Of a stretch of DNA of 24,813 nt, positions 1,236 to 24,379 are shown in pieces. Positions within the stretch are counted from its first letter, which is position 1; each line of letters begins with the position of its first letter. This stretch comes from a virus, in IMG/VR virus record IMGVR_UViG_3300031565_000345, positions 1 to 24,813 of that record; one strand, given 5' to 3'. A program made the translations under genes and the position numbers. A model generated the notes under the pieces. That model had not been told where the DNA came from and made no database searches. It was given only the letters and a program-made list of their open reading frames with translations.

Positions 1236-1245
1236 AAACCTTCTA
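1236..1245 (+). promoter_or_regulatory. Recurrent leader box AAACCTTCTA, copy 1
   Basis: Exact copy of the box, ending 12 bases before the epimerase ATG and continuing into CAGAAAG. It is the copy most complementary to the inverted box at 23465-23483: positions 1233-1251 could pair over 19 nt with one G-U. The box can also pair locally with GAAGGTTT at 1260-1267, which overlaps the start codon. Function unknown. Confidence 0.55.
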
Positions 1246-1257
1246 CAGAAAGAAGAA

Positions 1258-2334
1258 ATGAAGGTTTTAATTACAGGAGGGGCGGGTTTTATAGGGTCTA
1301 ATGTTAGTATCGAAGCCATAAAAAGAGGTCATCAAGTGATTGCTTTTGACAATCTCTGGAGGCCAGAGGTTAGTAAAAACCTAGAACTAATGCAAAAAAC
1401 ATACAAGGATAAATACCAGTTTGTCTGGGGTGATGTTAGGAACAAAGAGGACTTTGAAGCATTGCCAAAAGTTGATGCCATCATTCACTTTGCGGCCAAC
1501 CCAGAAGCAATTACAGCGGTTTATTATCCTGTGTATGATTTTAGGTCAAACGCAGTCGGGACTTTTAATGTTTTGGAGTTTGCCAGAAAAAGAAACATTC
1601 CTTTTATCTATGCCAGCACTACAAAAACAATGTCTGACATTATCAATGAATGGCCGATAAAAGAAACGAAAACTAGGTTTGAGCTGGAGACTGTTGATAA
1701 AGCACCAGATTGGCTAAAAGAGCTTTTACTACAAGGGCTAACAGTTGAAGGCGGCAAGGTATTGGCAATTAACGATAAGTTTCCGGTTGATGGTTTTGGC
1801 AAGTGGGGACACTCTCCTTATGGAATAAGCAAGTTGACCGGAGAACTTTATACCCAGGAGTTTCATGTTACTTTTGGCTTGCCAGTGGTAATTTTCAGGA
1901 TGAGTTGTATTTATGGTTTATGGCAAAAAGGAATAGAGGAGCAGGGATGGGTTGCGTGGTTCTTAAAACAGATGATGGGTGGAAATAGAAAAATTAACAT
2001 TTTTGGGAATGGCAAGCAGGTTAGGGACATTTTGGATGGCAGGGATGTAGCCAGAGCATATTTAAACGCCCTAGAGACGATTTCTAAGGTCAATGGACAG
2101 ATATTCACCATTGGCGGAGGCAGGAAATTTAACTATTCATTGCTAGAGGTAATTGCGGAGATTGAGAAGGTAACTGGCAAAAAAGCGGAATTGACTTTTG
2201 AAAAGAAAAGACCGGCAGACCAGGACTGGTATGTGTCTTGCAATAAGAAAGCCAAAGAATTATTAAATTGGGAGCCTGAGATTGGTTTGGGGCGGGCATT
2301 GGAGGATATGAAAAAACAACATGAGCAAAGATAG
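1258..2334 (+). CDS. NAD-dependent sugar-nucleotide epimerase, CDP-tyvelose 2-epimerase-like
   Basis: An extended short-chain dehydrogenase/reductase of 358 aa. It opens with MKVLITGGAGFIGSN, the GxxGxxG NAD-binding loop, and carries the catalytic pair in SPYGISK (Y188, K192) with an upstream Ser/Thr cluster (YASTT). The segment with FRMSCIYG, EEQGWVAWF and GNGKQVRDI resembles the RfbE (CDP-paratose/tyvelose 2-epimerase) branch more than GalE. A long insertion between the Ser/Thr cluster and the tyrosine also fits RfbE-like enzymes. I chose the ATG at 1258 because the Rossmann motif starts there; an upstream in-frame ATG at 1195 would overlap the previous gene. The enzyme would supply a nucleotide sugar in the cytoplasm for the neighbouring glycosyltransferases. 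No classical Shine-Dalgarno is present; the start is preceded by the recurrent box at 1236-1245. Confidence 0.88.
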   Translation: MKVLITGGAGFIGSNVSIEAIKRGHQVIAFDNLWRPEVSKNLELMQKTYKDKYQFVWGDVRNKEDFEALPKVDAIIHFAANPEAITAVYYPVYDFRSNAVGTFNVLEFARKRNIPFIYASTTKTMSDIINEWPIKETKTRFELETVDKAPDWLKELLLQGLTVEGGKVLAINDKFPVDGFGKWGHSPYGISKLTGELYTQEFHVTFGLPVVIFRMSCIYGLWQKGIEEQGWVAWFLKQMMGGNRKINIFGNGKQVRDILDGRDVARAYLNALETISKVNGQIFTIGGGRKFNYSLLEVIAEIEKVTGKKAELTFEKKRPADQDWYVSCNKKAKELLNWEPEIGLGRALEDMKKQHEQR

Positions 2335-3406
2335 CTTTGTTATCAAACAGAATGACGACTGGTGGGAATATGAGGAGAGATACAAAATGAAAAGAAAAAC
2401 TAGGGCGGTGATTATGGGGACTAGCTGTTTTCCCTTCCTTATAAGGTATTGGAGGGAATTGTTTAATAAGTGGGAAAAAACGGTAGATAAGGTTTATATT
2501 TCCCTAGCGCCTTTAGGTGATTATCCTGGTGCTAGGGAATACGCCAAGAGTGTTTTGAAACACCCGAAAATAAGGATAAGGGATAAGAATGAGGGTTGGC
2601 CTACAGGAATGGAAGAAGATGCCAAGGAGGCAAAAGAAGACTTATTGCTTATCTTGCATGACGACACTTTTATCCACAAGCCGGAGTTTTTAGAAGATAC
2701 TTTCAGCATAATGGGTGATAAGGCAATAACGCCGATACATCAAATTTATTCGGAGATAGGATATGTTGAGGAAAACATGAAAAAAAGATATGGCGATATG
2801 CTTCCCTGGAAATGTGCAAGCGGAGAACAAGGTTATTCGTTTCTTTTGTATCTGCTTTTTATTCCGAGGGAACAGCTAATGGAAACAAGCGTCAATTTTC
2901 AGGGATCGGGTTGGAAAAAAGGAGATTATATAAAAGAGCTAGGAATAACAACAGACAGGGACTTTGGCGGGGATACTGGTTTTAAATTGGGACTGGAGTT
3001 ATTGCAAAATGGCGTTATGGTGCAGCCGATACCAAGATATACAACTGCTAATATTCCTCTTGAAAAAAATCCGCTTGAGAAATTAAGAGAACTTCAAAAA
3101 AATAAAGAGGATTTGTTTTCTGATGAAGCTGGCTGGCTTCATATTTGCGGCATGGGGAATAGGTTGGGAGATTGGTTTGATAAAAATAAGAAGGAATACA
3201 AACAGAGTGAACAATTCAAACAAGACTGTATTCTTAAACTTGGCTGGCTGTTTGAGTTTTTGAGCTGTGATGAGTTTAATGAGGTTTCCGATTATAAAGA
3301 ACAAGTAAACAGGGAAGTCGAAAATGTTATTAAAAAATTAAATATTGATTTTAGGAGGGTGAAAGAATATCAAAAAATATTCCATCAATTATTATGGGGA
3401 AAATAG
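2321..3406 (+). CDS. GT-A-like glycosyltransferase (family 2 type), 361 aa
   Basis: The protein has a glycosyltransferase-like layout: an N-terminal strand (RAVIMGTSCF), a second strand (DKVYISLAP), and LLLILHDDTFI with D114-D115 at the place of the nucleotide-sugar/metal-binding DxD motif. The C-terminal half shares a clear pattern with the protein at 5389: NF-x-G followed by KKGDYIKEL, a GGDTGF segment, and a late WLHICG. The two are paralogues. It overlaps the epimerase gene by 14 bases. It presumably transfers a sugar in the cytoplasm; donor and acceptor are unknown. No membrane segment is evident. Confidence 0.68.
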   Translation: MSKDSFVIKQNDDWWEYEERYKMKRKTRAVIMGTSCFPFLIRYWRELFNKWEKTVDKVYISLAPLGDYPGAREYAKSVLKHPKIRIRDKNEGWPTGMEEDAKEAKEDLLLILHDDTFIHKPEFLEDTFSIMGDKAITPIHQIYSEIGYVEENMKKRYGDMLPWKCASGEQGYSFLLYLLFIPREQLMETSVNFQGSGWKKGDYIKELGITTDRDFGGDTGFKLGLELLQNGVMVQPIPRYTTANIPLEKNPLEKLRELQKNKEDLFSDEAGWLHICGMGNRLGDWFDKNKKEYKQSEQFKQDCILKLGWLFEFLSCDEFNEVSDYKEQVNREVENVIKKLNIDFRRVKEYQKIFHQLLWGK

Positions 3407-3960
3407 ATTTTAATTATGTCAACAATCTAGCTTTCAGGGATACGGATATAAACGAGCACCTGCTTGATTTATATGGAGTAGCAGTTGGTATGAACGCTAA
3501 AGTCATAGTTGAGCTTGGGGCTGGACAGTCAACTTATGCCCTAACGGCAGCCGCCAATGAAACTAAGGGCCAACTTTATAGTGTTGATTTGGGTAAAGAC
3601 GCAGTTACCAGGCTTTTTCCGCAAGGAGAAGGAGTATTAGATAAAGAAGAACGCTACCATTTTATCCAAGGTGATGATATGGAAATAGTAAAGACTTGGA
3701 ATACGCCGATTGATTTTCTTTTTTTGGATACCAGTCATTTATACGAAGATACGAAAAAGGAAATCGAGGCCTGGTTTCCTAAAGTGAAAAAAGGAGGGAT
3801 TATAGCCATGCACGACGTTGCCCACGAGGAGGGATTGGGGACAGGTTGCCGGAAAGCTCTTGATGAGTTTATGAAAAGCGAGGAAGGGAAAGATTATAGA
3901 GTATTACAATTACTTGACACAAAGCATCTAGGGATGGCTATTTTAATAAAGCTATTATGA
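3394..3960 (+). CDS. Class I SAM-dependent methyltransferase (Methyltransf_24-like), 188 aa
   Basis: A complete Rossmann methyltransferase. The SAM-binding motif I is VELGAGQST (residues 39-47). SVDLG after the next strand is the acidic post-motif II. FLFLDTSHLYEDT (D112) and KKGGIIAMHDV (133-142) are the characteristic later motifs of Methyltransf_24 and cephalosporin-hydroxylase-like proteins. The length is usual for the family. The ATG lies inside the end of the preceding glycosyltransferase gene (13-base overlap) and the stop overlaps the next start as ATGA, so it is translated within the same glycan operon. O-methylation of a sugar is the likely reaction; it could also act on another small molecule. 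Confidence 0.82.
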   Translation: MGKIDFNYVNNLAFRDTDINEHLLDLYGVAVGMNAKVIVELGAGQSTYALTAAANETKGQLYSVDLGKDAVTRLFPQGEGVLDKEERYHFIQGDDMEIVKTWNTPIDFLFLDTSHLYEDTKKEIEAWFPKVKKGGIIAMHDVAHEEGLGTGCRKALDEFMKSEEGKDYRVLQLLDTKHLGMAILIKLL

Positions 3961-4826
3961 CAAAAACAGTTCTCGTTTGTTTTCACAATTATGTTCCCAT
4001 GTACGACCACAAGTATTTTGACGTGATTTTGGACTATTTCATGCGTAATTTTGAGAAATATTGGCAAGACGAGGTAGATAAACTATACCTTTTGGACTCG
4101 AATTGGGAAGTGAAAGACATTAGCAATCCAAAGGTGGAAGTGATAAAGACAGACCCGAATATGCGTTACTGCAATACCTATAAGGCAGTTTTGCCTACGA
4201 TAAAAGAGGATGCGGTTTTACTTTTGGATAATGACATGGTGATTTACAGAAAAGGAATTGTTAAAGACGCTTTTAAACTAATTGAGAATGGTTTTGATGT
4301 GGTTTCAATTTACGATACGATTGGTGAAAAAACATTTGAAGAATTGGGTGGCAAGTCTAAGTTTTGTCCTTACCTTTTTGCCGTTAAAAAAGATTTGTTG
4401 ATGAAGTTTAGGGATTGCGATTGGGAAGATGATATGCCTCATTATGAAACATTAGGGCAATTAACAGAGGAGATGTTAAAAGCTGGTTTAAAGCCTTTTG
4501 AAATGGAGGAGGATAAAAACTCGATTTACTTTGATGGTGTAAAAGATAAGCCTAAGAATTTGGGTTATTACCATATTCGGGCAGGTTCAACGCCAGCCTA
4601 TTTGTTGACTCACAGAAATTTAGGAAATAGAAAAACCTATGAAGAGTTTATTAAGGGACAACCAAAAAGGGAAATTCTAAGACAGGTAGCCTGGTATTGG
4701 CTGATGGCAGATGAGGCTATAAGAAAAGATGTTATAGAAGTGGTAATGGATTGTGGAATGAGACCTGGTGAATTTAGGTTGTATGTAAGTGATTTTAAGG
4801 AGTTTCATGGATTGGAGGAGAAGTGA
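3957..4826 (+). CDS. GT-A-like glycosyltransferase, 289 aa
   Basis: It starts at the ATGA overlap with the methyltransferase. N-terminal MTKTVLVCFHNYVP and VDKLYLLDSN fit the first strands of a GT-A fold, and VLLLDNDMVIY carries a canonical D91-N-D93 motif for metal and nucleotide-sugar binding. The C-terminal YYHIRAGST parallels the WLH..G segments in the copies at 2321 and 5389. It is one of five divergent members of the same enzyme type in this locus. The acceptor may be a virion protein or host-surface glycan, but the sequence does not show which. Confidence 0.72.
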   Translation: MTKTVLVCFHNYVPMYDHKYFDVILDYFMRNFEKYWQDEVDKLYLLDSNWEVKDISNPKVEVIKTDPNMRYCNTYKAVLPTIKEDAVLLLDNDMVIYRKGIVKDAFKLIENGFDVVSIYDTIGEKTFEELGGKSKFCPYLFAVKKDLLMKFRDCDWEDDMPHYETLGQLTEEMLKAGLKPFEMEEDKNSIYFDGVKDKPKNLGYYHIRAGSTPAYLLTHRNLGNRKTYEEFIKGQPKREILRQVAWYWLMADEAIRKDVIEVVMDCGMRPGEFRLYVSDFKEFHGLEEK

Positions 4827-5020
4827 AAAAAACCATTGGAGAGTTAATTGACGAATTGAGCATCGTAAACTGTAAGATATATCATCTCGTTGAAAAGCAG
4901 CGACAGAATAAACATACTGCTGAAGATTGGACTAAATCAGAAAACTTAAATATTTACCGTTCGAAACTTAAAAATGCTATCAACAAAGAATTTAACCAAA
5001 GACAAGAAATCAAAATTTAA
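4823..5020 (+). CDS. Small protein resembling the N-terminus of DUF4254-type proteins, 65 aa
   Basis: The GTG start overlaps the upstream stop as GTGA and follows GGAGGAG at 4814-4820. The opening TIGELIDELSIVNCKIYHL resembles the pattern I associate with DUF4254 proteins, often found beside glycosyltransferases; I recall this rather than having searched it. The remainder is helical and charged (NIYRSKLKNAI, ending RQEIKI). It is much shorter than full-length members, so it may be a compact phage version or only a look-alike. Its composition is AT-rich. Confidence 0.6.
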   Translation: MKKTIGELIDELSIVNCKIYHLVEKQRQNKHTAEDWTKSENLNIYRSKLKNAINKEFNQRQEIKI

Positions 5021-5396
5021 ACATTCGAAAGAATTTGATATTTTTGTCGAAGTTATCAATAGATTAGAAATAGCAAGATGGGGAAAGGAATATATGAAAA
5101 ACAACAAACTACCTAGTCCATTTGTTCCCCATGTTTGGAGTGAAGCATGCGAGAATTGGTTTAAAAATAAGCTAGAAACTAACAAGGTAATTACAAAAAT
5201 GATATCTAAAGATGAGTTTATTAAAGCAGTTGAAGAATATCAAACCTTAAATAGATGGCAGTGGTTTAGAAAAAGAAAGTTAGAAAAGCAAATTGCAGTT
5301 ACGGCTAAATATTGGTTGGAAGATATAAAAAGTATTAAAAAGAAAGAGAAAATAGTTTTTAAAATTCCTAAAATAAAGGAGATTATAAATGACTAG
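4974..5396 (+). CDS. Hypothetical protein, up to 140 aa
   Basis: I do not recognise this family. The longest frame starts at ATG 4974 and overlaps the previous gene by 47 bases with no ribosome site in front. ATG 5094, preceded by AAAGGAATAT, is a well-placed alternative giving 100 aa, but the residues before it (EFDIFVEVINRLEIARWGKE) look like genuine protein, so I kept the long version. The body is lysine- and tryptophan-rich and mainly helical. The stop overlaps the next glycosyltransferase start by 8 bases. The start is the least certain part. Confidence 0.58.
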   Translation: MLSTKNLTKDKKSKFKHSKEFDIFVEVINRLEIARWGKEYMKNNKLPSPFVPHVWSEACENWFKNKLETNKVITKMISKDEFIKAVEEYQTLNRWQWFRKRKLEKQIAVTAKYWLEDIKSIKKKEKIVFKIPKIKEIIND

Positions 5397-6372
5397 AGCG
5401 GTTTTTTTATCGGCAGGTGGTGATTGCTTTATCGGCCTTTTTACCCACTACCTGTTTAAAAAATACTGGTATGGGGAAGCGGACAAGTTTTATGTTTGTT
5501 TAAACAACCATTCAGGTGTGCCAAAAGAAGTTATTAAAGAATACATTACTAATTTGGTTGACGACCCGAAAGTTGAGCTTATTTACCATCCTAGAGGCAT
5601 AGGTAATGGGATGCCGATAACAGAAATGGTTAAAATCTGCACAGAAGACTTAGTGATGCTGTTAGAGGACGATGGCTATATATTCACATCAGGCAAGGTC
5701 AACCAATATTTTCAGATGATTGAGTCTGATTTAACTGATGCGATTGGTTCACCTCGCTTTTCTTGTGCTGAGGAGATAGCCGAGGTTTCAGCTAAAAAGT
5801 ATAACCTTGATTATTCTGGTTATGGCGACAAAGGCCCTAACTGGTGGCCAAACTTTTTCTTTGTCAAGAGAACCGATTTGTTAAGAACTGACCTTAATTT
5901 CGGCAGTATCCAGTTTAAACCTGGCGATTACTGCAAGGAGCTTGACCATACTTTCAAGGAGATTGCTCATGGGGATACTTTTGTTTATGCCTGTATGCAA
6001 TTAAGGGCTTTGGGATTGCGGTTTTCTACCTGCCCCCAGTTTCACGCAGACCCTTTTGAAATAGAAAGCAAGGGAAAAAAGGAAATGAATTGGGTTGAAG
6101 GCAAGCCCTTTTGGTTGCATGGCGGTAGTTTGTCGGCCTCTTGGAATGGTTATTTAAGCGGTCAAGTGCCGGACATTCAAAGCGAGATTAACGCCAGGGA
6201 AATAGAAAGCAGGGTGGCTTTTTGGACAATCGCTTCCGATGTAGTTGAGGGGTTTGATGATTTTAAGAAACAGTATAAACAAGGGATTGAGAACTTGATT
6301 GTTAATGCCAAACTGGACAGGAAAAGGATAAATGAGAAAATTAGTTTGTATAAAAATTTAATGCAGGTATAA
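5389..6372 (+). CDS. GT-A-like glycosyltransferase, 327 aa
   Basis: A paralogue of the protein at 2321. It begins MTRAVFLSAGG, has ADKFYVCLNN as the second strand, and LVMLLEDDGYIF with E93-D94-D95 at the DxD position. The C-terminal half repeats the shared pattern: LNFGSIQFKPGDYCKEL, then GDTFVYA, LGLRF and FWLHGGS. This region probably contributes the acceptor site and catalytic base, by analogy with GT-A enzymes. The ATG is preceded by AAGGAGATTATAA. No membrane segment is seen, so it should act in the cytoplasm on a soluble or membrane-surface acceptor that cannot be identified here. Confidence 0.7.
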   Translation: MTRAVFLSAGGDCFIGLFTHYLFKKYWYGEADKFYVCLNNHSGVPKEVIKEYITNLVDDPKVELIYHPRGIGNGMPITEMVKICTEDLVMLLEDDGYIFTSGKVNQYFQMIESDLTDAIGSPRFSCAEEIAEVSAKKYNLDYSGYGDKGPNWWPNFFFVKRTDLLRTDLNFGSIQFKPGDYCKELDHTFKEIAHGDTFVYACMQLRALGLRFSTCPQFHADPFEIESKGKKEMNWVEGKPFWLHGGSLSASWNGYLSGQVPDIQSEINAREIESRVAFWTIASDVVEGFDDFKKQYKQGIENLIVNAKLDRKRINEKISLYKNLMQV

Positions 6373-6383
6373 GGAGAGAAATT

Positions 6384-6713
6384 ATGAAAATAAGAACTAA
6401 ATACAATATCAAAGATAAAGTTTGGTATTACATTGAACAATTTAATAAATATGCGTGGGGGAAAATTGAAAGTATAGAGGTGAAGGTTGGTGGATATAAC
6501 GAAAGAATAAGATATTTTATGAAAAATAGATTTTGTGGTGAGAGAAAAAAAAGTTACTATTTTTCCCCTACAGACTTTTATTGTTCTCGTATAGTGGAGA
6601 GAGAAGAAGAAGAACTATTTAAAAACCCAGAAGAAGTCAAGAAATATCTTAACCGACAGCATAAAGAGAAAATGGATGACTTATGTGAATTAAAAAAGGG
6701 TTTATTTGGATAA
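6384..6713 (+). CDS. Hypothetical small protein, 109 aa
   Basis: The ATG follows AAGGAGAGAAATT at 6371-6383. The N-terminus (KIRTKYNIKDKVWYY...GKIESIEV) has the spacing of small SH3-like barrel proteins common in phages, in which a basic strand is followed by 'D-x-V' and 'G-x-I' turns. This is a structural guess only. The C-terminus is charged and helical (VEREEEELFKNPEEVKKYL). The gene directly precedes the Thg1-like gene and shares its AT-rich composition, so the two may have entered together. Confidence 0.62.
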   Translation: MKIRTKYNIKDKVWYYIEQFNKYAWGKIESIEVKVGGYNERIRYFMKNRFCGERKKSYYFSPTDFYCSRIVEREEEELFKNPEEVKKYLNRQHKEKMDDLCELKKGLFG

Positions 6714-6743
6714 AATTACTTTGTATAGGGGGTTGATGGGAGT

Positions 6744-7433
6744 ATGAGTATAAATACAACAATAGGAAGAAAATATGATTTTTATAAAGGTTTAATTGTG
6801 CCTAATGGTTGTTATTTTATGGTGCGATTGGATGGTAATTGTTTTTCAAGATTTACTGAGAGATATGAACGACCGTTTGATAAAAGGTTTTATCAAGCAA
6901 TGCTAGAGGGAACTAAAGAACTTATGACTTATATTCCTGATATTTACAAAGCCCACTTTCACTCAGACGAAATCTCCCTTTACTTTGATAAAAATAGTCA
7001 ATGGTTTGATAGAAGGATAGAGAAGATTATTTCTATTACAGCAGGAATTTTATCAGCAAAGTTTTCTCAAGAAGTAAAAGCCCAGGCTCACTTTGACAGT
7101 AGAATTTTAGTCACGCCAACGAAAAGAGATGTAGAGATTTATGAGAAAGATAGAAGGCTTAATGCTTTTAGGGGTTGTGTTAATTCTTATGCTTATTATA
7201 GTTTACGGAAAAAAGGTTTGACTGAAAGACAAGCTACTAAAAAATTATTAGAGTTGAAATCCAAAGAAAGACAAGAATTATTGTTTAAGGAATTTGGGAT
7301 AAATATTGCTAAAGTTCCAAAGTGGCAAAGGGTTGGTTGTTTTTTAGTTTGGGAGGAATATGAGAAAGAAGGATATAACCCGATTAAAAAGATAAAAGTT
7401 AAGGCTATTAGAAGAAGAATAAAAATATTATGA
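6744..7433 (+). CDS. Thg1-like protein (TLP): 3'-5' RNA nucleotidyltransferase
   Basis: A 229-aa protein with clear signatures of the tRNAHis guanylyltransferase superfamily. VRLDGNCFSRFT contains D30-G31, the first metal-binding aspartate. AHFHSDEISLYF contains D75-E76, the second. FDRRIEKIISI, FDSRI, CVNSYAYYSLRKKGLT and a late KVPKWQRVG follow in the family's order. The VNSYAYY segment, in place of the eukaryotic HINN motif, puts it with bacterial/archaeal Thg1-like proteins. Those enzymes add nucleotides to RNA 5' ends in the reverse direction and repair 5'-truncated tRNAs. A basic tail (KKIKVKAIRRRIKIL) could bind RNA. The start follows GGGGGTTGATGGG. The stop overlaps the next glycosyltransferase as ATGA. 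No tRNA gene is seen in the window. Confidence 0.9.
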   Translation: MSINTTIGRKYDFYKGLIVPNGCYFMVRLDGNCFSRFTERYERPFDKRFYQAMLEGTKELMTYIPDIYKAHFHSDEISLYFDKNSQWFDRRIEKIISITAGILSAKFSQEVKAQAHFDSRILVTPTKRDVEIYEKDRRLNAFRGCVNSYAYYSLRKKGLTERQATKKLLELKSKERQELLFKEFGINIAKVPKWQRVGCFLVWEEYEKEGYNPIKKIKVKAIRRRIKIL

Positions 7434-8140: not shown

Positions 8141-8153
8141 GGGGTGAAAAGAA

Positions 8154-9253: not shown

Positions 9254-9324
9254 AAATAACAAATAAAGATTTTGAATTGTATAAAGCAGTTAATATTTTA
9301 ATAAATTATATTTTGAAGAAGTGA
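9250..9324 (+). CDS. Putative 24-residue coupled mini-ORF
   Basis: The GTG at 9250 overlaps the upstream stop (GTGA), and its own stop overlaps the next GTG at 9321 (GTGA). The ORF therefore fills exactly the gap between two glycosyltransferase genes. It encodes an N-terminal MKITNKDFELYK followed by a hydrophobic stretch (AVNILINYIL) and two lysines. AAGGAG lies ~11 bases upstream. It could be a real micropeptide, perhaps membrane-associated, or a translational relay carrying ribosomes across the gap. It could also be the remnant of a deleted orphan ORF of the kind found between the other glycosyltransferases. Confidence 0.4.
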   Translation: MKITNKDFELYKAVNILINYILKK

Positions 9325-10367
9325 AAATTTTAGCAGACTTTCATCACGACAGCCTATGGTGGGCATTACACCTGCTTTTTGAAAAGCGGTTAGGCTGGGA
9401 GCTTTACCGGCCTTATGGCGTGGAATGGTTTGACCAGGAATATTTTAAATTGTATGGGCATTTTGCCATGAAAGAACCTTACCGCTTTTTGGCTAAATTG
9501 TATTTAAAAGACATTGTTTTTACTCAAGATGGCGAGAACGGCTATGGTTTGGAAACAAGAATGGGTTGCATTGACTATCCCAAGTTTAAATTAGTTACCC
9601 TTAAAAAAGCTAAAGAAATGGACTTTGACATAATAATTTGCACCATCAACGAGAACGAAAAGTATTTTTACAAGTTCGCCAAAGAGTTTTGTCCGAAAGC
9701 GAAGCTGATAAGGATTACCGGCAATATGAATGATAAGGTTGACCACGAGCTTTATCCTAACCTGATGGCTTCTGATATATCCTCTTACAAAATGTATCAA
9801 GGAGAACACAAGGTTTTATTCAGGCAGGAGTTTGACTTGAACCTGTTTAAGTATTCACCGCCGACCAATACCCATAATTTATACAGCTTTTTGAATGGAC
9901 TTAGGGCAGAGGAAACCGAACCAGGGGTTTTTGGCACCTGGTTTAAGCTTTTGCATTTACTGCCTGAGTTTAAATTCAGGAGTTATGGCGGCAAGTGCGA
10001 GAACGGCCGGATTTTTGGCAAAAGGAAGTTGATTGAGAGAATGTCGGAAGCCTCTTTTTTATACCATGTGAAAAGGATTGACGGCTACGGGCATACTATC
10101 CACAATGCTTTTGCTTTGGGAAGGCCAGTTATTACTTGTTTTGAGTATTACAGAGACAAAATTGCCGAGCCTCTTTTGGTTGATGGCGAAACCGCTATTT
10201 TTACTGATGGCCGGAGCAGCCGGCAGATAGCAGAAATTGTTAGAAGCAAGGCTAACATAGAGGAATTGACAAGGATGAGTGAGAATTGCCGGAAGAAGTT
10301 TGAGGAGAATGTCAAGTTTGATTATGAATTTATGCGGATACAAAAGTTTTTGGAGGAGTTGAGGTGA
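9321..10367 (+). CDS. GT-B-like glycosyltransferase, 348 aa
   Basis: The N-terminal MKILADFHHDSLWWALHLLF and the C-terminal segment GYGHTIHNAFALGRPVIT (about residues 255-272), followed by DGETAIF, match the donor-binding end of GT-B enzymes of the GT4 or CgeB-like type. There, a G-x-x-x-x-E/N-A-hh-x-G-x-P-V loop contacts the nucleotide sugar. The last ~60 residues are helical (EELTRMSENCRKKFEE) as in GT4 C-termini. It is a tandem paralogue of the next gene. The start is a GTG in a GTGA overlap with the mini-ORF; the stop overlaps the next gene in the same way. Confidence 0.72.
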   Translation: MKILADFHHDSLWWALHLLFEKRLGWELYRPYGVEWFDQEYFKLYGHFAMKEPYRFLAKLYLKDIVFTQDGENGYGLETRMGCIDYPKFKLVTLKKAKEMDFDIIICTINENEKYFYKFAKEFCPKAKLIRITGNMNDKVDHELYPNLMASDISSYKMYQGEHKVLFRQEFDLNLFKYSPPTNTHNLYSFLNGLRAEETEPGVFGTWFKLLHLLPEFKFRSYGGKCENGRIFGKRKLIERMSEASFLYHVKRIDGYGHTIHNAFALGRPVITCFEYYRDKIAEPLLVDGETAIFTDGRSSRQIAEIVRSKANIEELTRMSENCRKKFEENVKFDYEFMRIQKFLEELR

Positions 10368-11719: not shown

Positions 11720-12124
11720 ATGACGGAAATAACTGACTTAGAAAAATTACCAAAAGAGAAACAAAAAGTCGTGGCTAAAGTCCTGTATAAAATGGGATGG
11801 GCTTCTAAAAAAATAGAAGAATGGCTTGGTATTTCGGATACAACAATTTGGCGGGCTTCAGAATTACCAACTCCAGAAGAGCTGAAACAATTTGAAATAG
11901 ATTTCCAAGTGGCAGTAAAAGGAATAAAGCAGGAAGGGATTGCGAAGGTTTTAAAACGGATATTGGAAATAATCCCAAAAGAAAAAAAATTAGACCAATT
12001 AGTGAAAGCAGGAGAATATTTGGAGGGGACTAAAACACCCTTAGTAGCCCAACAATTCAACATAGACGAAGTTAAAGTTTCCAAGGAGGAGTATGACAGG
12101 ATTTTCGAGGGGATTGAGGATTGA
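11720..12124 (+). CDS. Candidate small terminase subunit (HTH protein), 134 aa
   Basis: It lies directly upstream of, and overlaps, the large terminase gene, the usual place of terS. Residues 28-46 (ASKKIEEWLGISDTTIWR) look like a helix-turn-helix; the rest is mainly helical, as expected for an oligomerising small terminase. I chose ATG 11720 because GAGGG stands 4 bases upstream. A longer frame from TTG 11672 would run through the stem-loop and starts with implausible sequence. The role would be recognition of the packaging site and loading of the large subunit. The family assignment rests on position and HTH, not on a diagnostic motif. Confidence 0.62.
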   Translation: MTEITDLEKLPKEKQKVVAKVLYKMGWASKKIEEWLGISDTTIWRASELPTPEELKQFEIDFQVAVKGIKQEGIAKVLKRILEIIPKEKKLDQLVKAGEYLEGTKTPLVAQQFNIDEVKVSKEEYDRIFEGIED

Positions 12125-15073: not shown

Positions 15074-15286
15074 ATGGAAAGTGTAATAAGCGAGCATAAC
15101 TTTTTAGAATACCTGAAAAAGAACTATCCTTACCTTTGGGACTTTGAGGTGGAAATAAGGAAGGTGGTTGACGAGAGTGGGTTTGGCGATGCTTCAGCAA
15201 GCGTTATTGTTAGGAACAAAAAGGTGTTTTCCTGTGATGTTTCCCATTGGGTTAAAAAGTTATATGAGGAGAAAAAACAAGTTTGA
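15074..15286 (+). CDS. Hypothetical protein, 70 aa
   Basis: The ATG at 15074 lies 1 base after the upstream stop. The longer frame from 14975 runs through the zinc-finger gene in another frame and is rejected. There is no strong ribosome site, so coupling to the upstream gene is likely. The protein is a mixture of short strands and helices (FLEYLKKNYPYLWDFEVEIRK; SASVIVRNKKVFSC) and I do not recognise it. Its stop codon is part of the -35 element of the promoter at 15283. Confidence 0.6.
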   Translation: MESVISEHNFLEYLKKNYPYLWDFEVEIRKVVDESGFGDASASVIVRNKKVFSCDVSHWVKKLYEEKKQV

Positions 15287-15311
15287 CAAACCTTTAACTT
15301 AGTGTTATAAC
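15283..15311 (+). promoter_or_regulatory. Sigma70-type promoter, module A
   Basis: TTGACA (15283-15288), a 17-base spacer, then TATAAC (15306-15311) with an upstream TG giving an extended -10. This is close to consensus. The 10 bases AGTGTTATAA (15301-15310) are identical in module B at 22071-22080. The predicted start is near 15318. Confidence 0.78.
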
Positions 15312-15326
15312 TTTTATTAGTAAAGC

Positions 15327-15345
15327 TCAAAGGAATATATCCGAG
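15327..15345 (+). repeat. 19-nt repeated transcribed element, copy A
   Basis: TCAAAGGAATATATCCGAG is identical at 22096-22114. It lies between promoter and terminator in both modules, about 10-15 bases after the predicted transcription start. In copy A its last five bases form the base of the terminator stem; in copy B only the final base is used. Its conservation therefore is not explained by the hairpin alone. Confidence 0.75.
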
Positions 15346-15367
15346 GACTTAGGTTCTCGGTTTTTTT
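15341..15367 (+). terminator. Intrinsic terminator, module A
   Basis: CCGAGGAC, loop TTAG, GTTCTCGG forms an 8-bp stem with one G-U, followed by seven T. It ends five bases before the next start codon (15373) and only ~50 bases after the predicted start of the promoter at 15283. Confidence 0.85.
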
Positions 15368-16018: not shown

Positions 16019-16028
16019 AAACCTTCTA
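16019..16028 (+). promoter_or_regulatory. Recurrent leader box AAACCTTCTA, copy 2
   Basis: Exact copy ending 11 bases before the portal GTG and continuing into AGAAAG. With its preceding C it could pair over 11 nt with the inverted copy near 23470. Confidence 0.55.
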
Positions 16029-16039: not shown

Positions 16040-18217
16040 GTGCCGAAGAAAAAGAAAGAAGAAAATAAAAAGCCGGAAGTTATTAAATTAACAACGCTTA
16101 AAAGCGACAAGGAAAAGAAGGCTTTAAAGCGAGTAGCAAACCAGTTTTTAAAATCAAAAGCGGACAGTTTGTTTAAGTCGGCTTTTGAAAGCAGGGAACG
16201 CTATGATTGGGAATGGCTGACAAGGGATTTGTTCAGGCGGGGCTATCATTTCTCCAATTACGACCAGCCTAACAAGACTGTTCTTCTAGCCACCAGGAGA
16301 GGCGTTAAATTTCCGGTAAACCTCTTGTGGTCTCAAATGAGAGGGGTTAAAAACATGGTAACAAACTTCAAACCCAAATGGGAAGTCTTGCCAACCGGCA
16401 AGTCTGAGGAGTCTTTAGCCAACGCCCGCTATTCGGGCAAACTCCTTGATTACTATTACCAGCACTTGGGTTTAAGGAAAATGCTTAAAGAAACAGTTAT
16501 GCAGGGGTTGATGTTCTCCGTTGGCGGGCCTTGGCAGATAGGTTATGACAAAGAGACAGGCGAGGCTTATATTTGGCTTATTGACACTTACGACTTTTAT
16601 GTTGACCCTTTGGCTCCATCCTTAAAAGATGCCCAGTTTTGCGTTAAGGCAGTCAGGAAGAATTTAGACGAGGTAACTACCAATCCCCACTACAAATTTT
16701 ATGAGAGTATTCCCAAAACAGGAGAACCAGTGCTGGCGGTTTCTCCGGCCAAGCAGTTTCTAATCCAGGCATTAAAGCATAAGACTGGCAATACCAAAGA
16801 AGAAGAGGAAGAAGGGGCGATACTTAAAGAGGCCTGGATTAAAACAAGGGTTTCTGACGACAACATTGACGAGATAAAAGAGGAATTGGCTCAAAATGAG
16901 GAGGACACAAAGAATTTAAAGAATGGCGAGGTTTTAATGAGAATTGTCCATTTTACCGACTTTCTCCAAGACCCGCTTTTGGTTCAGCTTAAAAGAAGAA
17001 ATGATTTTCCATTCGCTTTGTACCAAGGGGATATTAACCCCTGCGAGCTTTACGGAGAGAGCTGGGCCAAACACATTATTCCTATCAACAGGGTTTTAAA
17101 CGCTTTGGAGTCCTCAGTTTTTATGTTCAATTACATGGTGGCAGTAGGTCGGGTAATCATTGATAAAAATTCAGGGGTGAGATTGGTTGCAAACCAGCAT
17201 GGCAGTTTCATTGAGAAAAATAGAGGAGCTGACGTTAAAATTCCCCAGCCGCCTTCAGCACCGCCAAGTTTCCAGCAGCAGATTGCAAACTGCTGGAAAT
17301 ACATTGAGGATTTGGGCGGTTTGCATGAGCCTTCCTATGGCAAGTTGCCTTCCAACATATCGGGAATTGCCTTAGCCGAGTTAAAACAAGCGGATGCTAG
17401 TAATTCCAGTGATTTGACCGATAACCTGGAAGAATTTTTGGTTGAGGTAGGGCAAAAGACCTTAAAAGTGGTTTCCCAGAATTATGATGTCCCTAAACTG
17501 ATTAAAGATTTGGGAATGGGCGGGGATGTCAAGCATTTTGCGGTTGTCGGCGAAAGCGGGGCTGGCAGGAGAAGCAACAAAAGGAAAGTTAAGATTGGGC
17601 CGGATAGTTTTGATTTGGCGGTTATCGGTTCTGACAATGAGATAAGGGTAACTATCGGCTCATGGCTGGCTTATACCAAGACCGCAAGGCAGGAGAGATT
17701 GGAAAGTTTGTTTGAAAAAGGCGCTATTGACCAGAAAACTTTACTGCAGCACTGCGAGTTTGCCGACGTGGATAATATTATCGAGAAAACCAGGCAGGAG
17801 GAGATTTTAAAGCAATTCAGGAAAAGCAACGCTCAAGGAGCTGAAGTTTCAGACGAGGAGATAGCAAGGCAGGAAAACGCCATGATGCTTCAGGGAAACG
17901 ATAAAGTAGAGCCTTTAGTAACCGATAACCACATTGTCCATAACATTGTCCATCAGGAGGCTTTGGGTGCGGGCGGAAACCCCATTATTGAGAAACACAT
18001 GAGCTTGCATGAAGCACTGGCCGAAAAACACCCTGAAGGGGAACAAGCACCAGCACAAACGCCAATAGCGACGCCAGCGCCAACGCCAGGGGTGGCAGGA
18101 ATGACCACGCCGCCGCCAGGAGCACCGGCCGGAGGCACGCCAGGCTCACCGGAAGAAGCGGCTTTAATGGAAAGTTTAGCAGGATTGCAAGGAGGTCAAG
18201 GTGGCCAAATTCGATAA
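16040..18217 (+). CDS. Portal protein, 725 aa
   Basis: Size, position after terminase and sequence character fit a phage portal of the large P22-like type. The N-terminal region is basic. Helical segments follow (RERYDWEWLTRDLFRRGYHF), then VNLLWSQMRGVKNMVTNFKP and a strand-rich wing with YIWLIDTYDFYVDP, a typical portal stretch. Long C-terminal helices rich in Q/E/K follow. The last ~60 residues before the end are low-complexity Pro/Ala/Gly (TPAPTPGVAGM, PPPGAPAGG), probably disordered. The portal dodecamer forms the DNA channel at the capsid vertex. The start must be GTG 16040, because TGA precedes it in frame; no Shine-Dalgarno is visible. An ATG at 16036 in another frame opens only a 10-codon ORF. 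Confidence 0.85.
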   Translation: MPKKKKEENKKPEVIKLTTLKSDKEKKALKRVANQFLKSKADSLFKSAFESRERYDWEWLTRDLFRRGYHFSNYDQPNKTVLLATRRGVKFPVNLLWSQMRGVKNMVTNFKPKWEVLPTGKSEESLANARYSGKLLDYYYQHLGLRKMLKETVMQGLMFSVGGPWQIGYDKETGEAYIWLIDTYDFYVDPLAPSLKDAQFCVKAVRKNLDEVTTNPHYKFYESIPKTGEPVLAVSPAKQFLIQALKHKTGNTKEEEEEGAILKEAWIKTRVSDDNIDEIKEELAQNEEDTKNLKNGEVLMRIVHFTDFLQDPLLVQLKRRNDFPFALYQGDINPCELYGESWAKHIIPINRVLNALESSVFMFNYMVAVGRVIIDKNSGVRLVANQHGSFIEKNRGADVKIPQPPSAPPSFQQQIANCWKYIEDLGGLHEPSYGKLPSNISGIALAELKQADASNSSDLTDNLEEFLVEVGQKTLKVVSQNYDVPKLIKDLGMGGDVKHFAVVGESGAGRRSNKRKVKIGPDSFDLAVIGSDNEIRVTIGSWLAYTKTARQERLESLFEKGAIDQKTLLQHCEFADVDNIIEKTRQEEILKQFRKSNAQGAEVSDEEIARQENAMMLQGNDKVEPLVTDNHIVHNIVHQEALGAGGNPIIEKHMSLHEALAEKHPEGEQAPAQTPIATPAPTPGVAGMTTPPPGAPAGGTPGSPEEAALMESLAGLQGGQGGQIR

Positions 18218-19034
18218 AGCGAAACTGCTAGTTTTAAGAAGCAACATTGATACTTATTTAAAAAAACTTGCCGAGCAGGAAAAAGACAGTTACCGCAAGT
18301 TAGCTTCAGGTTATGAGCAGGTTGAGCGTTCTCTTAACCGGATTATCGAGATTTTGTTAAACGAAACAAAAACAGATAAGACAATGGCCGCTTTAAAACT
18401 TTTGAAAAAAGAATTAGGGGAAGCTATCCAAGTAGCCAAACCCGACATGAGCGAAGTTGTGAAAGCGGTTGATAATTTAAGCAAGTCTTTATTAACCCAA
18501 GATAGAAAAGAGGGTGAAGTAGTTAAAAGGCTGGAAGCGATAGAAAAGGTTTTAACTAAAAATACTCCTAAAAAAGAAGTAAAAGCGGTTGACAGGACTG
18601 ACGAAGTAATAAAGGCAATAAAAAGCATTAAATTAAAAGTTCCCGAGTTTGAGTTTCCAAGCGAGGTGAATGTTAATCCTGGTTCTCATTGGCCGCCCCA
18701 GAAAGTCCCTAATCCGGTAACTCATATAAACATAAATTCTTTAAAGGGGAATGTCCACCAGACTACTACTACTGTTACGACAACTTTAACTCCTCTGCCT
18801 AGTTATGGCGTTCTTGATGACAGGAGAGCGATTATTTTCTACAATAACAGTTCTAGTATAACTGTATATATTGGCGGTTCTACTGTAACCGCTTCTACCG
18901 GAACACCGATAGAACCTAAAAGTTTTTCTCCTTCTTTTGACTCAGGCCCTTTGCAGAAATGGTATGGGATAACTTCGTCGGGAACGGCAGATGTGAGGTG
19001 TTTAGAGCTTCCAGACGAAGCTTCGGGCAGATAG
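18201..19034 (+). CDS. Coiled-coil structural protein with beta C-terminus, 277 aa
   Basis: GTG start after GGAGGTCAAG (18191-18200), overlapping the portal end by 17 bases. Residues 1-~125 are long charged helices with heptads (LAEQEKDSYRKLASGYEQVE; VVKRLEAIEKVLTK). A Thr-rich linker (TTTTVTTTLTPLPS) follows. The C-terminal domain has IIFYNNSSSITVYIGGS and WYGITSSGTADVRCLELP, a pattern seen in virion accessory proteins with a small beta-sandwich. It is likely a virion component such as a head fibre, connector or decoration protein; the exact role is not shown. Confidence 0.65.
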   Translation: MAKFDKAKLLVLRSNIDTYLKKLAEQEKDSYRKLASGYEQVERSLNRIIEILLNETKTDKTMAALKLLKKELGEAIQVAKPDMSEVVKAVDNLSKSLLTQDRKEGEVVKRLEAIEKVLTKNTPKKEVKAVDRTDEVIKAIKSIKLKVPEFEFPSEVNVNPGSHWPPQKVPNPVTHININSLKGNVHQTTTTVTTTLTPLPSYGVLDDRRAIIFYNNSSSITVYIGGSTVTASTGTPIEPKSFSPSFDSGPLQKWYGITSSGTADVRCLELPDEASGR

Positions 19035-19045
19035 CCTATAGTATT

Positions 19046-21336: not shown

Positions 21337-21349
21337 GCGGTGATATTTT

Positions 21350-21649: not shown

Positions 21650-21683
21650 AAATAATATTAAATAAGTCCAAAAAGGAGGACAA

Positions 21684-22049: not shown

Positions 22050-22052
22050 TTG

Positions 22053-22081
22053 TTGACATAATTCATCCAGAGTGTTATAAA
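22053..22081 (+). promoter_or_regulatory. Sigma70-type promoter, module B
   Basis: TTGACA (22053-22058), a 17-base spacer, TATAAA (22076-22081) with an upstream TG. It has the same architecture as module A and an identical AGTGTTATAA core. The predicted start is near 22088. Confidence 0.8.
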
Positions 22082-22095
22082 TTAAATTAGTTCAA

Positions 22096-22114
22096 TCAAA
22101 GGAATATATCCGAG
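22096..22114 (+). repeat. 19-nt repeated transcribed element, copy B
   Basis: Identical to 15327-15345 (TCAAAGGAATATATCCGAG). Here CCGA lies outside the terminator stem, which argues that the sequence itself is selected. Confidence 0.75.
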
Positions 22115-22140
22115 ATTGCCGAGAGGCAATCTTTTTTTTT
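22114..22140 (+). terminator. Intrinsic terminator, module B
   Basis: GATTGCC, loop GAGA, GGCAATC forms a perfect 7-bp stem followed by nine T. The stem sequence differs entirely from module A although the upstream 19 nt are identical. Confidence 0.9.
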
Positions 22141-22156
22141 AAGATAACCTCTCCTC

Positions 22157-22166
22157 AAACCTTCTA
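22157..22166 (+). promoter_or_regulatory. Recurrent leader box AAACCTTCTA, copy 3
   Basis: Exact copy, 16 bases after terminator B and ending 12 bases before the ATG of the HNH endonuclease. It is followed by TACAGAAA. Positions 22154-22166 could pair perfectly over 13 nt with the inverted copy near 23470. Confidence 0.55.
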
Positions 22167-22178
22167 TACAGAAATTCT

Positions 22179-22832
22179 ATGTTATTTAGAAAAGGGCAGA
22201 CACCTTGGAATAAGGGAATTAATAATAAACCACAGTGTACGGATTGTGGAGTTAAGTTAAAAAGTTATGGCTCGATAAGGTGTAAGAGTTGTGCTGCTAA
22301 GAAAAGAGATTTAACGAATTTTTTGAAAGTAGCACGCATAAATAGAATAGGAAAAGTTCCCTGGAATAAGGGTTTAACAACACCAGGTAAAGTGAAAGAA
22401 AAACAGAGTGAGGCACATAAGAAAAATCCTACGAAATATTGGTTAGGAAAGAAAAGGTTAGATATGGTTGGGAATGAATTTGGATTTAAAAGGGGAAACA
22501 TGAAGGGTGAAAAACATTGGAATTGGAAAGGTGGAGTAGGTCGTTTTAGAGATAGGGTTGTTCAGACACTTGAATGGCAAGAATGGAGAAAAAAAGTTTT
22601 TGAAAGGGATGATTATACTTGTCAAATCTGTGGTGAAAGGGGATGTTGTTTACATCCTCATCACAAAGTAAAATCATTTGCCAAAATTTTACAAAATAAC
22701 AATGTAACTACTTTAGGAGAGGCTAGAGAATGTAAAGAACTTTGGAATTTAGATAATGGCGAAACCCTTTGTGTCAAATGTCATCGACAAACTGATACGT
22801 GGGGAGGTAGAGTTATAAAATTTTTACAATAG
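22179..22832 (+). CDS. HNH homing endonuclease with NUMOD3-type motifs, 217 aa
   Basis: The N-terminal half has TPWNKGINN and VPWNKGLTT NUMOD3-like motifs and a CTDC...CKSC zinc knuckle. The C-terminal half is an HNH domain: WRKKVFERDDYTCQICGERG, then HPHHKVKSF (catalytic histidines), LWNLDNGETLCVKCHRQT (Asn and final His). This is the standard layout of phage-borne HNH homing endonucleases. The ATG lacks a Shine-Dalgarno and follows the recurrent box. The element appears to have inserted between that box and the structural gene at 22850. It is AT-rich compared with its neighbours. Confidence 0.9.
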   Translation: MLFRKGQTPWNKGINNKPQCTDCGVKLKSYGSIRCKSCAAKKRDLTNFLKVARINRIGKVPWNKGLTTPGKVKEKQSEAHKKNPTKYWLGKKRLDMVGNEFGFKRGNMKGEKHWNWKGGVGRFRDRVVQTLEWQEWRKKVFERDDYTCQICGERGCCLHPHHKVKSFAKILQNNNVTTLGEARECKELWNLDNGETLCVKCHRQTDTWGGRVIKFLQ

Positions 22833-22849
22833 AAGGGGGGTGAATTACC

Positions 22850-23194
22850 ACGCGTTATACATATATAGCTTCAGATAACAGCACAAGTGATGCAACCGCT
22901 TTTAATGCTGCCGGTAATGATTGTTTTGTCAAAAAGATTATTTTCGGCAACCCGACTGATGCGGATGTTTTACATCTTTACAACAAAGTATCAGCTACAG
23001 GTCATGCTAGTGGAATGGGAAGCGTTAGCACCAATTCTCTTGCTTTAAAGTTTGTCCAACCGACTCATGCGGCTGGTTGTGATTGGGTTTATGAATTGAA
23101 TTTGTCTGGTGAATTTAATCCTGGCCTACAGTTAGACGGCGGATGCGTTCACACAAACGGAGATAATACAACTATTATCTGGGACGACAAATAA
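22850..23194 (+). CDS. Small virion-type protein, 114 aa, apparently starting at ACG
   Basis: An open frame with clear protein character (RYTYIASDNSTSDATAFNAA; CFVKKIIFGNPTDADVLHLY; TTIIWDDK at the end). There is no ATG, GTG or TTG near its 5' end. TGA at 22841 closes the frame upstream, and the first in-frame ATG is 55 codons in. AGAAGGGGGGTGA (22831-22843) lies six bases before ACG 22850, the same spacing as for the starts at 8154, 21350 and 24404. ACG is therefore the best start; ATT 22844 touches the ribosome site. Composition and position suggest a virion protein. An ATG-to-ACG change or sequencing error is possible. Confidence 0.68.
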   Translation, partial: TRYTYIASDNSTSDATAFNAAGNDCFVKKIIFGNPTDADVLHLYNKVSATGHASGMGSVSTNSLALKFVQPTHAAGCDWVYELNLSGEFNPGLQLDGGCVHTNGDNTTIIWDDK

Positions 23195-23228
23195 ACCTTG
23201 ATTTTAGGGGGGAAATATTGAGTTTTAA

Positions 23229-23250
23229 TTGCGACGGGGGGAGTTCGCAA
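23229..23250 (+). promoter_or_regulatory. Hairpin just before the ribosome site of the 45-aa gene
   Basis: TTGCGA and TCGCAA form a perfect 6-bp stem with a 10-base G-rich loop (CGGGGGGAGT). The Shine-Dalgarno AAAGGGAGGG follows directly. It may position or protect the ribosome site. Confidence 0.45.
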
Positions 23251-23260
23251 AGGGAGGGTT

Positions 23261-23398
23261 ATGCCTTTTAAAAAAGTGGGGAAAAATAAGTATAAAAGTC
23301 CATCAGGCAGAACTTATACCAAAAAGCAGGTAAAAGCCTATTATGCGACTGGTGGCTGGAAAAGGAAACCCCATAAGGGAAAAAGAAAAAAGAAGTAA
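23261..23398 (+). CDS. Very basic 45-aa protein
   Basis: The ATG follows AAAGGGAGGGTT. The protein is almost half Lys/Arg: MPFKKVGKNKYKSPSGRTYT, then KKQVKAYYATGGWKRK and a poly-basic end. The core SPSGRTYTKKQVKAYYATGGW looks like a conserved small phage protein; I recall similar short basic proteins near head genes. It likely binds DNA or RNA, or an acidic virion partner. It is short enough to be missed by length filters. Confidence 0.75.
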   Translation: MPFKKVGKNKYKSPSGRTYTKKQVKAYYATGGWKRKPHKGKRKKK

Positions 23399-23418
23399 GC
23401 ACGTTTAAAAACATATTA

Positions 23419-23496
23419 CAAACCTTCTACTCCTTCAGAAGGTTTTCTGGAGGGAATTAAACTTTTTCTGTAGAAGGTTTGAGTTTAATTCTCTCG
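23419..23496 (+). promoter_or_regulatory. Bistable leader RNA containing box copy 4 and an inverted box
   Basis: The 199 bases between 23399 and 23597 contain no gene. Box AAACCTTCTA (23420-23429) can pair with AGAAGGTTT (23437-23445) or, over 12 bp, with GTAGAAGGTTTG (23470-23481). The second pairing frees TCCTTCAGAA to fold with TTCTGGAGGG (23431-23454). A third stem, GAGGGAATTAAAC (23450-23462) with GTTTAATTCTCTC (23483-23495), 13 bp with one G-U, fits only the first arrangement or a pseudoknot. An intrinsic terminator follows, as expected for an attenuator or riboregulator. Confidence 0.6.
23465..23483 (-). repeat. Inverted copy of the recurrent leader box
   Basis: The minus strand reads CTCAAACCTTCTACAGAAA, matching the full extended consensus of the forward boxes at 1236, 16019, 22157, 23420 and 24370. 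As RNA from the + strand it is complementary to all of them. Confidence 0.65.
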
Positions 23497-23527
23497 AAAA
23501 GGCTTTCTGGAAAGGAAGCCTTTTTTT
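23497..23527 (+). terminator. Intrinsic terminator before the scaffold gene
   Basis: AAAAGGCTT and AAGCCTTTT form a 9-bp stem with loop TCTGGAAAGG, continuing into a run of seven T. It ends the bistable leader. Confidence 0.85.
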
Positions 23528-23539
23528 ATTTATTCGCTT

Positions 23540-23583
23540 GTCCGTAACGTTAGCGGACCGACTCATGGCCGTAAGCACATGAG
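23540..23583 (+). promoter_or_regulatory. Two hairpins in the scaffold leader
   Basis: GTCCG (23540) pairs with CGGAC (23554). CTCATG (23562) pairs perfectly with CATGAG (23578-23583) across a 10-base loop. The ribosome site AGGAGGCGG follows a few bases later, before ATG 23598. No T tract is present. Confidence 0.45.
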
Positions 23584-23597
23584 AATAGGAGGCGGAA

Positions 23598-24341
23598 ATG
23601 CCTGATGAAAAAGGCAAAAACCCTGAGAGCGCAGAGACTCAGGATGACTCGCCAACAAACAAAAAAACGCCCGCAGACGACTCTGATAAGGCCGACAGCA
23701 AAGTCGTTAAAAAGCCAAAGTCAGAAGCAGAAAAAGAGTGGGAAGGTTTGAGAGGTTCTACCCAAGACCGAGTTGTTGAGCTTGTTCGCAGAGCGAAAGA
23801 AGCGGAAACAGCACTTGAGAGAACCAAGTTTCAAACACCCAGCAATTTAACACCATCGGATACTCCAACGCCACCCAAGGCTCCATCGCAAGATGAAGTC
23901 AAGGAAGCGGTTAAGCAGCTCATAAAGCCGCTTAAAGATGAGGGAGTAGTTACCAAAGAAGAGTTAAACGCTCTTCAGAACCGTTGGTATTTGGATTTTG
24001 AGCATAACCGCTTGACTACCAAATTCAATGGTTCGGATGGCCGTCCCAAATACCTTTCGGAAGAAGTCGAGGATTATGCCAGAACTCATGGTTATGGCGG
24101 AAATCTTGAGGCTGCTTACGAACAGTTGTACAAAGACGAGTTGTTGGATTTTGAGATAAAACAAAGAGGTTATCAGAAACGCAAAGAACCTTATACTGAG
24201 AAGCCTGTCGCTTCCGTCAAAATAGGTGAAAAAGTGCTGACTAGAGAAACTCTAAGAGAGCGACTAAGACAGCCTGACGGACCCGATTGGTGGGCAAAGC
24301 ATAAGGACAAGATAGACCTTGCCAAACTTTCTCCTCGTTAA
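23598..24341 (+). CDS. Candidate capsid scaffolding protein, 247 aa
   Basis: ATG after AATAGGAGGCGGAA. It lies directly upstream of the major capsid gene, the usual place of a scaffold. The N-terminal ~60 residues are highly charged and disordered (KNPESAETQDDSPTNKKTPA). They are followed by helices (QDRVVELVRRAKEAETALER; EVKEAVKQLIKPLKDEGVV) and a basic, helical C-terminus (TRETLRERLRQPDGPDWWAK), which in scaffolds contacts the coat protein. No protease motif is visible. Identification is from position and composition. Confidence 0.7.
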   Translation: MPDEKGKNPESAETQDDSPTNKKTPADDSDKADSKVVKKPKSEAEKEWEGLRGSTQDRVVELVRRAKEAETALERTKFQTPSNLTPSDTPTPPKAPSQDEVKEAVKQLIKPLKDEGVVTKEELNALQNRWYLDFEHNRLTTKFNGSDGRPKYLSEEVEDYARTHGYGGNLEAAYEQLYKDELLDFEIKQRGYQKRKEPYTEKPVASVKIGEKVLTRETLRERLRQPDGPDWWAKHKDKIDLAKLSPR

Positions 24342-24368
24342 AGTTTTGCTTATTGAATAAAACTTTTT
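24340..24368 (+). terminator. AT-rich hairpin between scaffold and capsid genes
   Basis: AAAGTTTT (24340-24347) and AAAACTTT (24359-24366) form a perfect 8-bp stem with an 11-base loop, followed by a short TT. It overlaps the scaffold stop codon. It would be a weak intrinsic terminator or an attenuating hairpin adjusting scaffold:coat ratios. Confidence 0.45.
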
Positions 24369-24369
24369 C

Positions 24370-24379
24370 AAACCTTCTT
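24370..24379 (+). promoter_or_regulatory. Recurrent leader box, copy 5 (AAACCTTCTT)
   Basis: Nine of ten bases match the box. It is followed by CCACAGGGAAAG and a strong ribosome site. It lies two bases after the hairpin/T run, as copy 3 lies just after a terminator. Confidence 0.5.

Follow-up and report, generated by a model that had tools for sequence, protein, structure and literature searches.

The recurrent box and the genes that it precedes

The phage DNA analysed here, all 24,813 bases of virus record IMGVR_UViG_3300031565_000345 (the window), raises the question of why one ten-base word, AAACCTTCTA, recurs in front of several of its genes. Our answer, held with moderate confidence, is that these boxes are mRNA target sites of a single phage-encoded, multi-target antisense RNA originating from about positions 23400–23530. 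Searching for the word on both strands confirmed the copies listed in an initial annotation of the window, with exact matches on the + strand at 1236, 16019, 22157 and 23420 and a 9/10 match at 24370, and every forward copy in the window is intergenic. The minus strand contains a fifth exact copy at 23471–23480 and a 9/10 copy at 23436–23445; the former, overlooked in that annotation, makes sense of the remaining copies.

Four of the boxes lie, as had been noted, 11–24 bases upstream of a start codon (Table 1), and the identities of the corresponding genes (epimerase, portal, HNH endonuclease and major capsid) are supported. The starts at 1258, 16040 and 22179 do lack a Shine-Dalgarno sequence (SD), with SD duplex energies of −1.2, −0.4 and −0.1, respectively, and the capsid start has a value of −14.0. 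The reported (C)AGAAA extension is also real. In an alignment of nine copies strong conservation is confined to an 11-mer core, and position −1 is C or T in all of them, either of which pairs with a G in the loop described below. Two copies had been placed directly after terminator-like hairpins. This is accurate for the box at 22157, which has a proper terminator upstream (22112–22133); the hairpins upstream of 16019 have no U-run, that upstream of 24370 is AT-rich (judged by eye), and the box at 23420 precedes, rather than follows, the terminator at 23496–23525.

The annotation had further claimed that so many copies of one word are not expected by chance, which does not hold for copy number: Markov-2 random genomes contained a mean of 0.83 10-mers (with at least three G/C) in four copies and, all words considered, four copies of some 10-mer are in themselves not rare. 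The claim stands for location, since a single 9-mer common to four intergenic segments of the window and also present as an inverted copy appeared in 0/1000 simulations. It is the location of the boxes, rather than their count, that is the non-chance feature.

Further copies had been predicted outside the window, and they are present on nearly identical contigs. Two of these contigs (L006 and L007) share 99.96–99.97% identity with the window across 13 kb, and there is no further exact copy in the 9.6 kb upstream of the window contained in the record of L006. Three others (L030, L032 and L038) reach downstream of the window and carry extra copies, at L030:6603, L030:7367 and L032:237, all intergenic and all on the coding strand (Table 1; the labels adaptor and tail derive from gene position). 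In the five leaders without an SD, the distance from the end of the box to the start codon is 12, 11, 12, 11 and 10 nucleotides (nt), and the SD duplex energies of these starts range from −0.1 to −1.7; most other genes of the phage have an SD. Two boxes lie farther off, both at SD-bearing genes, namely the capsid gene (24 nt) and the MRYTYI gene of L032 (45 nt). Additionally, the same adaptor protein has an SD upstream in L032 and a box upstream in L030 and L038. The absence of an SD alone is not special, because it also occurs at the portal starts of L008 and L009 and at several tightly packed genes.

A predicted hairpin RNA displays the inverted box

The exact minus-strand copy, designated the anti-box, belongs to a region of three predicted hairpins (Table 1). 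The whole anti-box is situated inside the loop of hairpin 2, and an intrinsic terminator adjoins this hairpin. Folding thus predicts a stable structured RNA with its own intrinsic terminator, as would be expected of a trans-acting phage antisense small RNA (sRNA). Positions 23380–23600 had no match in Rfam at gathering score, and the C4 RNA was not among the permissive hits. Those hits (leaders, attenuators) look like generic hairpin-plus-terminator matches and were discarded.

The complementarity between the loop and the leaders reaches past the 10-mer. The mean duplex energy of seven leaders against the loop was −22.9 kcal/mol, versus −15.8 (standard deviation 0.94) for controls with the flanks of other phage leaders and −16.9 for controls with shuffled flanks (0/1000 for both), and the extension matches between leaders and loop include bulges. 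In the epimerase leader, 21 contiguous positions are paired with the loop. A blind target scan of the + strand placed the leader boxes on top, except for one coding site near 18940, which may be a chance match. The loop therefore contains an accessible seed complementary to several leaders beyond chance, a property of sRNAs that act on several targets.

Table 1. Coordinates of the boxes, the proposed antisense RNA and a further candidate target (duplex energies in kcal/mol; positions are those of the window unless a contig is named)
Feature	Position	Strand	Details
Box A, epimerase leader	1236..1245	+	Start 1258, gap 12, no SD; loop pairing ~1233–1253; duplex −29.3, 21 contiguous pairs
Box B, portal leader	16019..16028	+	GTG 16040, gap 11, no SD; duplex −19.8, singly not significant
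Box C, HNH endonuclease leader	22157..22166	+	ATG 22179, gap 12, no SD; duplex −24.7
Box D, within proposed RNA, stem of hairpin 1	23420..23429	+	
Box E (9/10), capsid leader	24370..24379	+	GTG 24404, gap 24, strong SD between; duplex −23.3
Region of the proposed antisense RNA (three hairpins), downstream of operon ending 23399	23400..23530	+	Minimum free energy −46.2 kcal/mol, z −6.2, 0/200 shuffles
Hairpin 1, box D paired with AGAAGGTTT	23420..23445	+	z −4.7 alone
Hairpin 2, 15-base-pair stem, 16-nt loop (23465–23480) displaying anti-box	23450..23495	+	z −4.6 alone
Anti-box, exact inverted box copy (TAGAAGGTTT on + strand)	23471..23480	−	Includes the CAGAAA extension
Hairpin 3, intrinsic terminator with U-run	23496..23525	+	13 pairs, 4-nt loop
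Box	L030:6603 (= L038:5065)	coding	Before adaptor-type gene
Box	L030:7367 (= L038:5829)	coding	Before tail-type gene of 502 amino acids
Box	L032:237	coding	Before MRYTYI gene, gap 45 nt, gene with SD
Weak candidate target in gene 18201–19034	18941..18959	+	Duplex −22.8 in blind scan; just before ATG 18959

Box and anti-box differ together in a diverged relative

Conservation among related phages turned out to be partial, with the box being absent from every syntenic leader compared in L031 and the whole system being present, in covaried form, in L180. The latter is a diverged relative (73% protein identity for the capsid and 60% for the adaptor) with a different word, CAAGCCTTCA, at 2640, 5248 and 5271. 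The reverse complement of this word occurs at 2693–2702, in a predicted hairpin loop (fold z −4.5), and this box/anti-box locus lies between the same two genes as in the window, with the same 45-nt gap. As in the window lineage, one of the boxes (5271) stops 10 nt short of an ATG that lacks an SD. Pairing of the boxes with the loop of their own lineage is stronger than pairing across the two lineages by about 6 to 14 kcal/mol, and at least three pairs are altered on both sides between the window and L180 (A-U to G-C, U-A to A-U, and A-U to C-G or U-G, by eye). Seed and targets thus appear to have covaried between relatives, as expected for an sRNA, in a comparison of two lineages where a concerted change of the motif is also possible.

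L031 does not have the stretches of 20–120 nt that carry the boxes; the leaders corresponding to the box-bearing ones are shorter in this contig, as are, for the portal, those of L008 and L009. A loop-to-leader search among relatives identified no other clear multi-target case among the matches listed. Eight other contigs contained the fixed-gap box/anti-box pattern, but in none of them did the word recur in leaders, and tandem boxes in other viruses were limited to L032 (again as L203), together with apparent coding repeats and chance matches. The 14-base box pattern used to search other viruses was too loose. The absence of the system from other relatives suggests, therefore, that the circuit is lineage-specific. 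INPHARED contained no relative of the portal, and a search for the host through capsid relatives in genome bins returned distant, mixed matches only (Deltaproteobacteria, Gammaproteobacteria, Anaerolineae and Planctomycetes).

Proposed mode of action and alternative explanations

The initial annotation had offered a promoter, an RNA-processing or protein-binding site, or a translation element as possible functions of the box. A post-transcriptional element acting at the level of translation is supported by two features, namely the constant distance to starts without an SD and the complementarity to a phage-encoded hairpin loop, and the promoter is disfavoured by the lack of a second element. 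We propose that the hairpin RNA is made and accumulates, perhaps released by processing from the 3′ end of the operon transcript, the last gene of which ends at 23399. Its loop would pair with (C)AAACCUUCUA(C)AGAAA immediately upstream of start codons, and the resulting duplex, covering roughly positions −24 to −5, would block binding of the 30S subunit or attract RNase III. The products of the portal, adaptor, tail, HNH and epimerase genes would in this way be kept low, with the SD-bearing capsid gene being less affected. The least certain part of the model is the sign of regulation, which is probably repression of translation; repression fits because the likely low-copy products (portal, adaptor, tail and HNH) have SD-less genes and the abundant capsid has a strong SD.

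Several points weigh against an antisense RNA with many targets. The RNA is a prediction from sequence, and an alternative fold that joins box D to the anti-box intramolecularly is just 1.8 kcal/mol weaker than the best one, so that the RNA could also regulate itself. Taken singly, the pairings of the portal, L030:7367 and L032:237 leaders are not, or only marginally, significant. Only two lineages have the system, and the target genes differ between them. Besides, the anti-box is the same motif as the box in the opposite orientation, and a concerted change of a protein-bound motif would mimic covariation. Finally, simple occlusion would not need a gap kept as constant as 10–12 nt, and activation is thus also conceivable.

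In the main alternative, the 11-mer is bound, as DNA or as RNA, by a protein of the phage or the host, as has been proposed for the SAS or stoperator-type sites of actinobacteriophages, with the copy at 23471 being one more site. The core is indeed short, asymmetric, intergenic, adjacent to starts and mostly oriented in the direction of transcription, and comparable repeats occur in other phages, according to passages in PMC3203893 and PMC7302621. Nevertheless, we consider this explanation unlikely, because it does not account for the single full inverted copy in a hairpin loop beside a terminator in two lineages, for the alternation of C and T at position −1 or for the bulged extension matches. 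The loop context and these two features favour RNA pairing, short of proof.

The same RNA might also be an activator, with pairing either freeing the SD of the capsid and L032 MRYTYI genes or aiding initiation at the SD-less starts. The fixed gap of 10–12 nt at the latter suggests a geometric role, and the leaders of capsid and of L032 MRYTYI are predicted to form hairpins between box and SD, as a trend only (p about 0.07–0.10). In most leaders, however, the box sequesters the start region no more than shuffled boxes do, and this cis sequestration was overall not significant, making activation rather improbable. We give very little credence to a further possibility, that the RNA switches SD-less genes on because its stem supplies the Shine-Dalgarno sequence in trans: once loop and box are paired, a purine-rich arm of the stem (CUGGAGGGAAU in the window, UAAGGGGUAAG in L180) would come to lie near the start codon, and the lack of SDs as well as the fixed spacing would be explained.

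If the box were a promoter element, with transcription starting 10–12 nt downstream, the mRNAs would be leaderless or have very short SD leaders. In keeping with this, the box ends about 10–12 nt before the start codon or, for the capsid and L032 MRYTYI genes, before the SD (by eye). Against it, a second element at a fixed distance, such as that of Sigma-70 promoters, was not found in the nine aligned copies, separate TTGACA-N17-TATAAN sites are conserved across relatives, and leaderless mRNAs are poorly served by GTG and TTG starts; a promoter is accordingly very improbable.

Equally hard to sustain is that the box only marks or guides the exchange of cargo genes, without a regulatory role. 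In its favour, box C borders the HNH insertion and the box at L030:6603 borders a cargo block, and L032 has neither the HNH gene nor the cargo genes; L031, as stated, lacks the box-bearing stretches, and repeats linked to insertions and deletions are known from Cluster O phages (PMC4351075). The fixed gap to the start codon, the copy in the hairpin loop and the covaried system of L180 would all remain unexplained. The coincidence of boxes with gene flux may be a side effect of recombination between repeats, as reported for the Cluster O phages. RNA-guided mobility, suggested by the HNH gene beside a box, was set aside, because boxes and hairpin are also present in L032, which does not have this gene.

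Other features of this phage group

Strains of the phage differ in gene content downstream of the window: in L030 a block at 4091–6565, encoding a surface-like protein of 526 amino acids and with a box at its right edge, replaces a gene of 85 amino acids present in L032 (4552–4809). The start of the MRYTYI gene varies too. It is apparently ACG in the window (about 22854) and ATA in L180 (2110), each after a strong SD, and ATG in L031 and L032 (292), the SD there being separated from the ATG by about 20 nt and a tiny reading frame with a GTG start.

Promoter-like sites of the form TTGACA-N17-TATAAN, each with an intrinsic terminator no more than about 80 nt downstream, occur in the window at 15286–15360 and 22051–22133, both copies sharing CAAAGGAATATATCCGAG. 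The same layout is found at about 7826–7900 in L031 and about 2000–2070 in L180, that is, in three lineages in all, and suggests attenuation or antitermination at operon starts.

Several genes contain apparent insertions. The capsid gene has an insert encoding an HNH-like protein in L032 (2121–3082) and L038 (122–1083), resembling a group I intron below the Rfam threshold (E = 0.00033), and another insert, with an endonuclease-like open reading frame, in L180 (about 3594–4386). The large terminase gene (window 12093–14699) has an apparent intein with a LAGLIDADG domain. A gene for a Thg1-like tRNA-His guanylyltransferase is located at 6744–7433 of the window (Pfam E = 6.9e-28). In L058, genes upstream of the window contain tandem repeats of 39 and 21 base pairs (6894–7251 and 9255–9467), encoding KAYQKTPKY-type and EAYYKAG-type repeats.

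Comparison with known systems

The C4 antisense RNA of phages P1 and P7 is phage-encoded, acts on phage gene expression and has complementary stretches thought to be in loops (PMC12197685). In being a phage antisense RNA with its complementarity in loops, it resembles the RNA proposed here. C4 has one target, situated in its own transcript. The candidate RNA differs from it in that at least six leaders spread over about 28 kb would be involved, and in the lack of an Rfam match noted above. Phages also encode VpdS, PreS and DicF, RNAs with effects on mRNAs in trans; VpdS influences phage and host mRNAs (PMC12197685), whereas the candidate targets here are a repeated start-associated box in the phage genome.

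The start-associated sequences (SAS) and extended SAS (ESAS) of Cluster K and Cluster EF phages are, in passages of PMC3203893 and PMC7302621, short asymmetric repeats upstream of many starts, mostly in one orientation. The box likewise lies directly upstream of starts and mostly in one orientation. In contrast, SAS are placed by these passages at the ribosome-binding site, with an SD-like core (GGGATAGGAGCCC, GGGAAAGGACCCC), and the box is SD-free and located at SD-less starts (duplex energies of −0.1 to −1.7 at gaps of 10–12 nt); a complementary loop is not mentioned in the SAS descriptions there. Cluster A stoperators, proposed to act in transcription termination and silencing, and the 17-bp (base pair) repeats of Cluster O, which are associated with insertions and deletions (PMC4351075), are scattered and largely intergenic, as is the box, although the Cluster O repeat is palindromic, often inside genes and not tied to starts.

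Repeated, start-adjacent boxes with no known partner have thus been described in several groups of phages. In the present case, the phage genome itself contains a candidate partner, a hairpin loop complementary to all boxes and with a covaried counterpart in a relative. If this is true, one phage RNA sets the translation of several structural genes, constituting a viral RNA regulon, and other phages with unexplained leader boxes could be searched for hairpin loops that are complementary to a word repeated in their own leaders. This case joins start-associated boxes with a candidate RNA partner in one genome, and is best classed as a variant of phage antisense regulation rather than a member of the SAS or C4 systems.
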